This document shows positions 12,735 to 63,767 of a DNA stretch of 64,000 bases, in pieces. The position numbers and the translations under genes are program-made. The stretch's first letter is position 1. Each line of letters begins with the position of its first letter. The DNA is from Saccharothrix sp. ALI-22-I (lineage in GTDB: Bacteria > Actinomycetota > Actinomycetes > Mycobacteriales > Pseudonocardiaceae): positions 1-64,000 of the forward strand of contig NZ_MTQP01000067.1 of the NCBI RefSeq assembly GCF_001984175.1, written 5' to 3'. The notes under the pieces were generated by a model, which was not told the origin of the DNA, searched no databases, and saw only the letters and a list, made by a program, of their open reading frames with translations.

Positions 12735-12750
12735 TGAAGGAGTGATCGAC

Positions 12751-13506
12751 GTGGCACGAGAGTCCACCGGCGGCGTCCAGTCACTGCAACGCGCCTTCGA
12801 CCTGCTGGAACGCCTGGCCGACGCGGGTGGCGAGGCGAGCCTGTCCGAGCTCGCCGGCACCTCCGGCCTGCCGTTGCCGACCATCCACCGGCTGATCCGC
12901 ACCCTTGTCACGCTGGGGTACGTGCGGCAGAACAGCAACCGCCGCTACACGCTGGGGTCCCGGCTGATCCGGCTCGGCGAGAGCGCGTCACGGCAGTTCG
13001 GCACGTGGGCGCGGCCGTTCCTGGCGCAGTTGGTCGACCAGGTGGAGGAGACCGCGAACCTGGCCGTGCTGGACGGCGACGAGGTGGTGTACGTGGCGCA
13101 GGTGCCGTCACGGCACTCGATGCGGATGTTCACCGAGGTCGGCCGCCGGCTGCTGCCGCACGGCACCGGCGTGGGCAAGGCGATGCTCTCGCAGCTGCCG
13201 CGGGACGAGGTACGCGCCCTGCTGTCCCGCACCGGCCTGCCCGCGTACACCCCGAACACGATCACCAACGCGGACGAGCTGCTGGCGTCCCTGGACCAGA
13301 TCGCCGTGCAGGGCTACGCACTCGACGAGAGCGAACAGGAACTCGGCGTGCGGTGCATCGCCGTACCCCTGCACGGGGCCCCGACGCTGTCCGCCGTCTC
13401 CGTCTCCGGCCCCGACAGCCGCCTGACCAAGGAGTCCGTAGCCCGCATCCTCCCCGAGGTCCTGGCCATCGCCAAACGCCTCACCGACCAGGCAACCCGC
13501 ACCTGA
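12751..13506 (+). CDS. IclR-family transcriptional regulator, probable AllR-type repressor
   Basis: A 251-aa regulator with an N-terminal winged helix (residues about 8-70: QSLQRAFDLLERLA, then LSELAGTSGLPLPTIHRLIRTL) and a C-terminal effector-binding GAF-like domain (about 80-245) including HGTGVGKAMLSQLP and LDESEQELGVRCIAVPL. The GTG at 12751 sits eight bases after AAGGAG; an earlier GTG at 12742 overlaps that site. Streptomyces coelicolor AllR, a relative, represses allantoin genes. The divergence from aceB and the shared dyad at the urate/hyi promoter suggest the same job here, with an allantoin-pathway metabolite or glyoxylate as effector (inference). Confidence 0.85.
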   Translation: MARESTGGVQSLQRAFDLLERLADAGGEASLSELAGTSGLPLPTIHRLIRTLVTLGYVRQNSNRRYTLGSRLIRLGESASRQFGTWARPFLAQLVDQVEETANLAVLDGDEVVYVAQVPSRHSMRMFTEVGRRLLPHGTGVGKAMLSQLPRDEVRALLSRTGLPAYTPNTITNADELLASLDQIAVQGYALDESEQELGVRCIAVPLHGAPTLSAVSVSGPDSRLTKESVARILPEVLAIAKRLTDQATRT

Positions 13507-13510
13507 CCCC

Positions 13511-13716
13511 CGCGTGTCCAACGTTGAGAACGCGCGTGTCCAACGTTCGCGTCGCGCGTGTCCTACGTTCAGAACACCCGAGTTGAACGCTCAGAACACC
13601 CGAGGTCGGCGTTCAGGCCGCGCGGCTCGCACCTGAGCGTTGAATTCATGCGTTCTGGAGGTAGGACACGCGCGTTCCGAACGTTGGACACGCGCGTTCT
13701 GAGTGTTGGACACGCG
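13511..13716. repeat. 22-base tandem units forming a ~200-base inverted repeat (locus A)
   Basis: Five 22-base units run forward (13511, 13533, 13555, 13577, 13599) and at least four run in reverse (ending 13716, 13694, 13672, 13650). The main unit begins CGCGTGTCC, has A or T at position 10, and ends GTTCAGAACG. Arms correspond unit by unit: units 1-3 of each arm match at 19 of 22 positions and unit 4 at 14. Both third units carry CCTAC where the others carry CCAAC. The element lies between the convergent iclR and ftsY genes, beginning four bases after one stop and two after the other. No spacers, terminal repeats or frame are present. Function is unknown; a bidirectional terminator or 3' UTR structure is plausible. 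Confidence 0.85.
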
Positions 13717-13718
13717 GG

Positions 13719-15101
13719 TCAGTTGAGGAGGGCGTCGACGAAGGCGGTGGGTTCGAAGGGGGCCAGGTGGTCGGCGCCCTCGCCCAGGCCGACGAGTTTG
13801 ACGGGCACGCCGAGTTCGCGTTGCACCTGGAAGACGATGCCGCCCTTGGCGGTGCCGTCGAGCTTGGTCAGCACGATCCCGGTCACGTTCACCACCTCGG
13901 CGAACACCCGTGCCTGGGTCAGGCCGTTCTGGCCGGTGGTGGCGTCGAGGACGAGCAGGACCTCGTCCACCTTCGCCTGCTTCTCCACCACGCGCTTCAC
14001 CTTGCCCAGCTCGTCCATCAAGCCGGTCTTGGTGTGCAGGCGGCCGGCCGTGTCGATCAGCACGGTGTCCACGCTGTCGTTCACGCCCTGCTTGACCGCC
14101 TCGAACGCCACCGAAGCCGGGTCCGCGCCCTCGGGGCCCCGGACGGTCGACGCGCCGACGCGCGAGCCCCACGTCTCCAGCTGGTCGGCCGCCGCCGCGC
14201 GGAAGGTGTCCGCCGCGCCCAGCAGCACGGTCCGGCCGTCGGCCACCAGCACCCGGGCCAGCTTGCCGGTCGTCGTGGTCTTGCCGACGCCGTTCACGCC
14301 GACCACCAGCACGACGGCGGGCTTGACCCCGTCCGCACCGTCGGAGTGCGGCAGGGCGTTCACCGCGCGGCTCATCTCGGGGTGCAGGGCATCGACGAGC
14401 ACGTCCCGCAGCAACGCGCGGGCGTCATCGGACGTGCGCACCCCGCGTGCCACGATCTGCTCCCGCAGCGCGGTGACGATCTGGTCCGTGATCGCCGCAC
14501 CCAGGTCGGCCATCAGCAGCGTGTCCTCGATGTCGGTCCACGAGTCCTCGTCCAGGTCACCCGCGCCCAACAGCCCCAGCAGGCCCTGCCCGAACGTCGA
14601 CCGCGACCGGGACAGCCGTCCGCGCAGCCGCTCCAGCCGACCGGACGTCGGCTCGATCTCGTCGATCTCGGACGCCTCTTCGGGCAGGTCCACCTCGACG
14701 AACCCGCGCTTGACCGAGTCGCGCGGCACGGCCGCGTCGTCACCGACGCCCGGCTGGCCGTCGACCTCGGTGCGGTCGGCCACCGGGTGTTCGACCGGCT
14801 CGATCACCTCGACCGGTTCGACCACCTCGACCGGTTCGGCCGTCTCCACGGGTTCGGCCGTCTCGACCGATTCAGCCGTGTCGGCGGGTTCAGCCGTGTC
14901 GACGGGTTTGGCCACCGGCGGCGCGGGCGCGTTGAACGTGATGGCGCCGCCGGCCTGGTAGCCACCCTTGACGGGCTTGTCCTGCTCGGGCTCGACGAGG
15001 CTGATCCGCCGACGCCGCGCCAGCACGACGCCCGTCACGATGGCGACCGCGAGCAGTGCCGCGACGACGACGATGATCAAGATCAGGGACGTGGTGGACA
15101 C
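13719..15101 (-). CDS. ftsY: Signal recognition particle receptor FtsY
   Basis: GTPase receptor that docks SRP-bound ribosomes at the membrane. From the GTG at 15101 (GAGGA at good spacing) the protein has 460 aa. It has an N-terminal membrane segment (about 4-27) with a following RRRR stop-transfer cluster. An acidic linker of repeated EPVE and TAEP hexads follows (about 60-105), then the NG domain with P-loop [20 protein letters not shown] and the [10 protein letters not shown] specificity motif. The membrane-anchored N-terminus is the usual actinobacterial form. Unlike in mycobacteria, smc is about 8 kb away rather than adjacent. The 3' end abuts repeat locus A. Confidence 0.95.
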
Positions 15102-15215
15102 GTCGCAATCCTCGCACGCCACGGTATGTTGACTATCGACGAACTAGGTTGATTTCCGGCTACTTTCCCACCAAGACTCTTGCGCCTGCGGGCAGTGTGG
15201 AATAGACCACAGGGC

Positions 15216-57318: not shown

Positions 57319-57340
57319 GACCCGCGCCTGAAGCTTGTCG

Positions 57341-57372
57341 AAGGCCCCCGGGATTCACATCCCGGGGGCCTT
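57341..57372 (+). terminator. rpmB terminator
   Basis: AAGGCCCCCGGGAT (57341-57354) pairs perfectly over 14 bp with 57359-57372 around TCAC, 22 bases after the rpmB stop. Repeat locus B begins 13 bases beyond. Confidence 0.85.
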
Positions 57373-57385
57373 CTGGCGTTCTACG

Positions 57386-57451
57386 CGTTCTGAACGTTCA
57401 ACTCACGCGTTCGGAGCGTTGGACACGCGCGTGCTGGACGTTGGACACGCG
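57386..57451 (-). repeat. 22-base tandem units next to ung (locus B)
   Basis: Three 22-base units occupy 57386-57407, 57408-57429 and 57430-57451, reading from the ung stop on the minus strand. The two nearest ung start CGCGTGTCCAACG; the third is the GAGTTGAACG subtype. The element begins two bases after the ung TAA with CC as spacer, the same junction as at ftsY. It has one arm only, without the inverted partner of locus A. Confidence 0.85.
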
Positions 57452-62217: not shown

Positions 62218-62380
62218 CGAGAGTCGAACCCTCAGGCCCCCTGAGTTCAACACTCAGAACGCGCCCAACCCGACCTGAACGTTGAACTCGACCTACCTGA
62301 GCGTTCGACTCTCGCGCGTGTCCAACGTTCAGAACGCGCGTGTCCTACGTTCGGGACGCCCGAGTTGAGCGTTCAGGATG
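62218..62380. repeat. 22-base units and nested inverted repeats (locus C)
   Basis: Forward units lie at 62315-62336 (CGCGTGTCCAACG then TTCAGAACG), 62337-62358 (CCTACG variant) and 62359-62380 (GAGTTGAGCG subtype), the last overlapping the mocR stop codon. Before them, 62218-62236 pairs with 62296-62314 at 18 of 19 positions and 62243-62257 with 62275-62289 at 13 of 15, forming a nested hairpin built from related GAGAGTCGAAC and GAGTTCAAC units. It lies between the 3' end of mocR and the promoter side of ddl. The GC-rich 62137-62217 stretch before it holds no gene that I can see. Confidence 0.8.
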
Positions 62381-63767
62381 CGTGGGTGGGGGCGTTGAGG
62401 ATGCGGATCAGGGTTGGGAGGGCGGAGGTCAGCTGGTCGCGGGAGCAGGCGCTGTAGCCGATGGCGGCGCCGTGGACCTTCGGGCGGCCGGCGTGGTGGC
62501 GGCTCAGGCCGTCCAGGCGCAGGCCGTGGTCGTGGGCCTCGGCCAGGACGTCGCGTTCCGCCTGCGCGGAAGACAGCGGCACGACGATGTGCGCGCCGGC
62601 GTCGTCGCCCAGCACGGGGATGCCCGCGTCGGCGAAGGCCGCCGAGAGCAGGGCTCGGCGTTCGGAGAGTTCACGTCGGAGCTTGCGGAGGTGCCGGCCC
62701 AGGTCGCCGTTGCGCGCCAGCTCCACCAGGATTCGCTGGCCCGCCGCGGACGGGCTGGTGCCGGTCCGGTCGCGGTGCGCGAGGACTTCGGCGGCGATCG
62801 GTTCCGGCGCGACCATCCAGCCGGCGCCGAGGGTCGGGGTGAGGATCTTGCTCGTCGTACCCAGGTGCACCACGACGTCCGGAGCCAGAGCCGCCAACAA
62901 CGGCAACGGCGCCACGTCGTACCGCAGCTCGCCGTCGTAGTCGTCCTCGACCACCAACCACCCCTCCGCACGCGCCCGCTCCACCAACGCCACCCGCCGC
63001 GCGGCCGACATGCGCCCACCCAACGGGTACTGGTGCGCGGGCGAGCAGTACACCCCGCGCACCCCCGGCGGCACGGCCTCCACCAGCAACCCCTCGGCGT
63101 CGACGGGCGCCTGCACGACCCGCACCCCGGCCGACCGCAACGCCCACACCGCCCGCTGGTACCCCGGCTCCTCCACCGCCACCGCGTCACCGGGCCGCAG
63201 CACCGCCGACCCCAGCTCCACCAACGCCGCCGTCGTCCCGCCGGTCGCCAGCACCAGCTCCTCCCGCAACCCACCCCGCACCGCCAACCCCCGGTGCCGC
63301 AGCAGGTGCTCCGCCACCACCGCCCGGTACTCCGGCAACCCACCCCGAGCCGGCCGGAACATCGGCTGCACGTCCGCCGCCGCACGCCAAGCCCGCCGCC
63401 AAGCCGCGCGATCCAGCCCCTCGGCCCAAGGCGCCCCCGGCGCGAGATCGACCACGTCGGCAGGCACAGCCGCCACGGCAGCACGCCGGGTCCGCGACTT
63501 CAACGCACCCGGCGGCGTCGTGGTCACGTACGTCCCGGAACCGTGCCGCCCCGCGATCCAGCCCTCGGCGTGCAGCTGCTCGTACGCCGCCGCCGTCACG
63601 GTCCGGCTCACGCCGAGCCGTTCGGCCAACGCCCGCGTCGAGGGCAGCCGGTCACCGCTGCGCAGCCGTCCGTCGGCCGCCGCCGCACGCAGGGCGACCG
63701 CGAGTTGAACGGCCAACGGTTCGGCCGACGTGCGGTCCAGCACGACCGCCAGTGCCGTCTCCGACAA
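62373..63767 (-). CDS. MocR/PdxR-type regulator (GntR domain fused to aminotransferase fold)
   Basis: A 464-aa fusion. The N-terminal GntR winged helix (about 15-80) includes GRLRSGDRLPSTRALAERLGVSRTVTAAAYEQL. The C-terminal domain (about 110-455) is a type I aminotransferase fold with the PLP-lysine region GTTSKILTPTLGAGW, DDYDGELRYD, and the PLP-ring-stacking LATGGTTAAL block. Such proteins sense PLP and often control vitamin B6 genes or divergent neighbours. It is divergent, by 66 bases, from a PPOX-fold flavin/PLP-type protein, the likely target. Confidence 0.9.
   Translation of the reverse strand: MSETALAVVLDRTSAEPLAVQLAVALRAAAADGRLRSGDRLPSTRALAERLGVSRTVTAAAYEQLHAEGWIAGRHGSGTYVTTTPPGALKSRTRRAAVAAVPADVVDLAPGAPWAEGLDRAAWRRAWRAAADVQPMFRPARGGLPEYRAVVAEHLLRHRGLAVRGGLREELVLATGGTTAALVELGSAVLRPGDAVAVEEPGYQRAVWALRSAGVRVVQAPVDAEGLLVEAVPPGVRGVYCSPAHQYPLGGRMSAARRVALVERARAEGWLVVEDDYDGELRYDVAPLPLLAALAPDVVVHLGTTSKILTPTLGAGWMVAPEPIAAEVLAHRDRTGTSPSAAGQRILVELARNGDLGRHLRKLRRELSERRALLSAAFADAGIPVLGDDAGAHIVVPLSSAQAERDVLAEAHDHGLRLDGLSRHHAGRPKVHGAAIGYSACSRDQLTSALPTLIRILNAPTHAS

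Follow-up and report, generated by a model that had tools for sequence, protein, structure and literature searches.

Between the convergent genes iclR and ftsY lies one member of a dispersed, lineage-specific family of arrays of a 22-nt unit, which we take, with a probability of roughly 0.55, to be a bidirectional hairpin at the transcript 3' ends common to both genes. The sites and layouts of these arrays are inherited while the sequence of the unit is homogenised within each species, which is concerted evolution. Placement, stability and inheritance are observed; an effect on transcripts, such as termination, is inferred.

The element between iclR and ftsY

The iclR-ftsY gap is 212 nt long and contains the element at positions 13511-13716 of the window, the whole 64,000-nt stretch of DNA that was analysed (Table 1). 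Five forward and four reverse 22-nt units are present as described in the original prediction, with forward type-A units of the form CGCGTGTCC[A/T]AC... Units 1/1', 2/2' and 3/3' of the two arms, paired by eye, share 19/22 identities each, reproducing the agreement claimed for them. The distances of 4 bases from the iclR TGA and 2 from the ftsY TGA are also correct, the iclR stop ending at 13506 and the ftsY stop beginning at 13719, and Pfam confirms IclR and SRP54/FtsY for the flanking genes. A stem of about 88 bp had been proposed for either transcript, and RNA folding of 13500-13725 recovers it, with 89 pairs, -160.8 kcal/mol and z -16.2 on one strand and 88 pairs, -151.9 kcal/mol and z -15.2 on the opposite strand. 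The window holds 9 matches to the 22-mer with at most 3 mismatches, compared with 0 in 100 shuffles.

Table 1. Features of the focal element, its flanking genes and other family members in the window
Feature	Position	Strand	Basis	Units
iclR-family regulator gene, 4 nt between its stop codon and the element	12742-13506	+	ORF, Pfam	
Forward arm, three type-A 22-nt units	13511-13576	+	Unit matches	Starts 13511, 13533, 13555
Two type-B units (CCCGAG...) of the forward arm; the second is degenerate	13577-13620	+	Unit matches	Starts 13577, 13599
Hairpin centre, non-repeat, approximate limits	13621-13628	.	Fold	
Reverse arm, one type-B unit inward of the type-A units, approximate limits	13629-13650	-	Unit matches	
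Reverse arm, three type-A units	13651-13716	-	Unit matches	13651-13672, 13673-13694, 13695-13716
ftsY gene, 2 nt between its stop codon and the element	13719-15122	-	ORF, Pfam	
One-direction family member, three units, 2 nt after ung	57386-57451	-	Unit matches	
Complex family member (++--+++), at the 3' end of a GntR/aminotransferase-type gene (62373-63767)	62218-62380	.	Unit matches, Pfam	

A search of Rfam 15 returned no family above the gathering score, only sub-threshold chance matches, none of which falls within the focal element. No description of this repeat family was found in the open-licence literature on Saccharothrix and actinomycete repeats, terminators and convergent genes. An ordinary GC hairpin (for example GAAGGCCCCCGGGATTCACATCCCGGGGGCCTTC) adjoins some arrays, as at 57340-57377 in the window and in gaps 451179 and 754847 of the same contig; in these gaps the separate hairpin may act for whichever of the two genes the array does not serve.

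Anatomy and placement of the elements

Elements were compared over 800 kb of the source contig and 400 kb from each of four relatives (2.4 Mb), with genes called by a purpose-written simple codon-usage caller that recovers the ORFs at the focal locus. Across the 81 elements found in these five genomes, same-strand neighbouring units are spaced by exactly 22 nt in 301 of about 313 cases, and along the forward direction the A-to-B step occurs 90 times, the B-to-A step twice. A period of 22 nt corresponds to two turns of A-form RNA. The layouts comprise 34 elements of the +- type, 16 of the -+ type, 21 one-direction arrays and 10 complex arrangements. Against mononucleotide shuffles, two-armed elements have a median fold z of -9.5, with 85% below -4, whereas one-direction arrays have a median of -1.7 and none lies below -4. 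Single units of four dialects, examined as possible palindromes, are no more stable when folded than their shuffled versions (z -0.1 to -1.0). No U-tract follows the arrays: the best 10-nt window past the last unit mostly contains 2-4 T and 6 at most (n=126). Some arms are of unequal length, and a local expansion to five CCTCC units is seen at 117902.

Among gaps of at least 40 nt, elements occupy 45/223 convergent, 36/713 tandem and 0/394 divergent cases (convergent versus divergent, p 6e-22; tandem versus divergent, p 1e-7). The closeness to stop codons noted at the focal site extends to the family, with a median distance of 5 nt to the nearest stop and 65/81 elements within 20 nt, and 34/36 tandem-gap elements are nearer to the upstream stop than to the downstream start. 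Named Saccharothrix contigs, a smaller and biased sample, gave 31 convergent, 10 tandem and 1 divergent case; the last is a two-unit element of S. carnea (L184), because of which the avoidance of divergent gaps may have exceptions. In raw counts, core 9-mers number 11-13 per 100 kb of coding and 47-147 per 100 kb of non-coding DNA. A fixed orientation of one-direction arrays after the stop codon seemed to hold in the first genome and was abandoned, the unambiguous tandem cases dividing 5 to 3.

Family size and taxonomic distribution

A genome-wide search for the 22-mer, proposed as a check of the original prediction, yielded 402 occurrences with at most 3 mismatches in the 10.3-Mb source genome, and the pattern read backwards yielded 0. 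Probably over a hundred gene ends in one Saccharothrix branch carry stacks of the unit. Among the matches listed, exact 22-mers in the genome collection all belong to Saccharothrix (S. deserti, S. carnea, S. luteola and others). A degenerate two-unit pattern occurs as 81-530 pairs per genome in 14/25 genomes of the genus, as one pair in G018 and not at all in the other ten. Elsewhere in the taxonomic family, of which 297 genomes were searched, the pattern is confined to two genomes from a single further genus, with 93 and 19, and to two matches in a third genus. In G166, from another genus, facing arrays of a GAGTCCAAC dialect stand at L040 and L046 (+++---- and ++--), the latter between convergent genes; given this facing-array layout, the family is perhaps older than the genus, or was transferred.

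On an FtsY tree of 24 genomes a single branch divides carriers from non-carriers (1 change; 0/500 shuffles as low), the tree being that of one gene and the support of the key branch a moderate 85/79. The earliest-branching carriers have the fewest pairs (99 in G020, 81 in G008 and 147 in G009), and the pattern fits one gain followed by expansion.

Inheritance of sites and concerted change of the unit

When the comparison is limited to gaps bordered on both sides by orthologues that are neighbours in each genome, elements of the source genome are matched by elements at 8/8 gaps in G006, 10/12 in G022, 6/8 in G014 and 3/9 in G009, a genome where noise affects the model of the unit (null 78 of 181). 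The layout is often kept too: the array at 213495 is forward-only in four species and that at 167258 is -+ in several, and for the one-direction arrays at 213495 and 72261 both site and direction are conserved.

The unit itself follows the species. It reads GTGTCCAAC in the source genome, GTGTCCTAC/GAGTCCTAC in G022, GAGTCCTAC in G006, GTGTCGAAC in G014 and GAGTCGTAA in G009. Between species, similarity is 15.15 of 22 at orthologous sites versus 15.05 at different sites, and within one species different sites agree at 16.46 of 22. Permutation puts the species effect at 1.38 of 22 (p<0.0002), against 0.07 for the site effect (p 0.26). A species effect without a site effect at shared sites indicates concerted evolution at fixed sites. 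The extent of drift is apparent in G009 (L160-L179, for example in the gap orthologous to 472316 of the source contig), where a strongly divergent dialect, GCGAGTCGTAA..., is found; one 10-mer of this genome lies in 21 convergent, 2 tandem and 0 divergent gaps.

These observations bear on whether the family is a mobile or selfish palindromic repeat of the REP/BIME or MITE kind, spread by a transposase or a replication-linked process, with any hairpin role secondary and the 3'-end bias reflecting survival only where insertion is harmless. We consider this unlikely. The likeness to REP/BIME is considerable, in that both are dispersed, high-copy and intergenic, lie near stop codons of convergent or unidirectional genes, rarely form head-to-tail dimers and have clade-specific sequences (PMC3733652, PMC2817692). 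For most convergent REPs the nearest 3' end is no more than 20 bp away (PMC3733652), comparable to the position near 3' ends and the avoidance of divergent gaps reported here. Mobility would also suit a high-copy dispersed family limited to one clade, with more copies in later branches, and its absence from G009 at 6/9 of the source sites. However, sites and layouts are mostly common to species while the unit sequence is not, which implies that most copies are not recent insertions. The REP is a palindrome of 20-40 nt with a stem of 5-13 bp, whereas in Saccharothrix head-to-tail stacks are built from a 22-nt unit that is no palindrome, and a stem, of about 90 bp, arises only from facing arrays. 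On a reading of the consensus, neither a GTAG nor a CGTC end tag is present in CGCGTGTCCAACGTTCAGAACG or the other dialects.

In distribution, too, a link to RAYT transposases is missing. PF01797 is found in 5/25 genomes of the genus, with two matches in the source genome, but G004, G022, G016 and G017, all rich in elements, lack it; a RAYT/REP origin does not fit this distribution and was rejected. No transposase family recurs beside the elements: for 59 flanking proteins, the 25 most frequent Pfam families, which leave aside 111 with a single member each, include none. The proposed analogy to REP/BIME thus stands for dispersal, for a palindrome once the arms are assembled, for the position at stop codons and for the absence from divergent gaps, but not for the unit or for RAYT transposases.

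Pairing of the arms

Among the innermost facing A units at ftsY/iclR in 12 species, G017 being left out of the analysis because its innermost pair was mis-picked, 86.7% of positions pair, and 9/20 base pairs are altered on both sides. The covariation score is 0.289 versus 0.140 when shuffled and at most 0.102 when slid. Covariation is by itself no proof of selection on the stem, because the arms are copies of a homogenised unit.

The arms had been thought to correspond in order. The CCTAC unit is third in both focal arms, for which the chance is 1 in 3 given one such unit per arm, and the correspondence is not a general rule: over 70 A-type unit pairs in the two-armed elements of the five genomes, mirror partners agree at 17.49 of 22 positions versus 17.54 for shuffled partners (p 0.68). 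With random mirror order, homogenisation of the units could account for the pairing, with no need for selection. Facing arrays, however, far outnumber head-to-tail arrays, which counts in favour of selection for pairing.

Possible function

That these elements are dedicated 3'-end structures, one of the options offered originally, is well supported by their location, folding and positional conservation, and by replacement of dialects with pairing kept. As a bidirectional 3'-end hairpin, the element would be transcribed from either side and its arms would form a long GC-rich stem, which could end transcription and/or protect the 3' end from exonucleases; a single element would then serve both convergent genes and limit antisense read-through. 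The arms would lengthen or shorten as units are duplicated, and gene conversion, by which one copy recombines with another, could spread the current species version to all sites, in which case the arms would stay complementary automatically. Candidates for the homogenising process are gene conversion, slippage within arrays or some enzyme. Term-seq maps of Streptomyces show terminators that are poor in Us and whose hairpins are the longest and most stable (PMC12207403), and the missing U-tract is therefore not disqualifying in GC-rich actinomycetes; by analogy, a role as a 3'-end hairpin is plausible in Saccharothrix.

One-direction arrays, about a quarter of the elements, are not explained by a hairpin-only role, and their conservation at some sites despite the lack of a stable fold keeps a sequence-reading factor in play. 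Tentatively, and with the odds well against it, the family could constitute a genome-wide 3'-end code in which the unit is rewritten in each species as a trans-acting reader changes specificity, the hairpin being one form of presentation; the candidate factor would bind, process or copy the unit. Rather improbable, to our minds, is a plain array of binding sites for a sequence-specific DNA or RNA protein, such as a polymerase roadblock or a nucleoid or 3'-end processing factor, where the unit is the signal and dialects follow changes in the protein. The strict 22-nt period, the fixed A-to-B order, the concerted change by species and the one-direction arrays that keep their site and direction while lacking a stable fold would all suit such an array, but single arrays are far fewer than facing ones, unambiguous tandem one-direction arrays occur in both orientations, and no candidate protein has emerged.

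An absence of function, with slippage and palindrome-driven template switching inflating old terminator hairpins, recombination homogenising them and 3' gaps tolerating the result, is in line with the random mirror order, the hairpin-free gaps of some relatives and the unequal arms and local expansions such as that at 117902, but very improbable in view of the same gaps being occupied across four species at about 90% protein identity and of the tight positioning beside stop codons.

Comparison with known systems

If the elements are 3'-end hairpins, they resemble the intrinsic terminators of GC-rich actinomycetes, whose long GC-rich hairpins likewise lie past the stop codon and have Us in small number or not at all (PMC12207403). 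A stable hairpin of the kind expected of an intrinsic terminator is formed by the focal element and the other two-armed ones but not by one-direction arrays. In the USS of Haemophilus and the DUS of Neisseria, two opposed copies of a genome-wide motif form a terminator stem (PMC5217627), and species dialects of DUS have been described (PMC3630211), both as in Saccharothrix. Unlike USS and DUS, the Saccharothrix unit is longer and tandem-stacked. In raw counts, its core motif is 4-12 times as dense in non-coding as in coding DNA. USS and DUS are DNA-uptake sequences, and no such role is known for the Saccharothrix units.

Ordinary terminators have a shape in common but not a sequence, whereas many Saccharothrix sites share one stacked unit that changes in concert by species at constant gene ends. 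This raises the question of whether a sequence-specific 3'-end signal exists in GC-rich actinomycetes, mostly without U-tracts. The family also provides a natural system for asking how bacteria homogenise short dispersed DNA, and would be of use for annotating transcript ends in Saccharothrix genomes. Concerted evolution is familiar from repeated genes such as rRNA operons, whose copies at fixed sites match one another inside one species but not across species. The Saccharothrix arrays differ from rRNA operons in being short (about 60-280 bp), non-coding and situated at 3' ends, where the homology on offer for recombination is limited.

Hairpins in lineages without the repeat

Outside the repeat clade, the ftsY gap contains unrelated plain GC hairpins in G002, G013 and G011; in G008 the hairpin is formed from a single unit. 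Likewise, G009 has an unrelated plain hairpin (z -5.3) at 213495. Such plain hairpins, sometimes present in the same gap of repeat-free lineages, likewise speak for selection on pairing, though several lineages are without any. In some members of the genus the ftsY-iclR gap is just 3-10 nt long with no hairpin, and a hairpin is thus not essential at this locus. The family-free G018 has a gap of 341 nt after ftsY that contains a different long inverted repeat, with a folding energy of -224 kcal/mol (339 nt folded).
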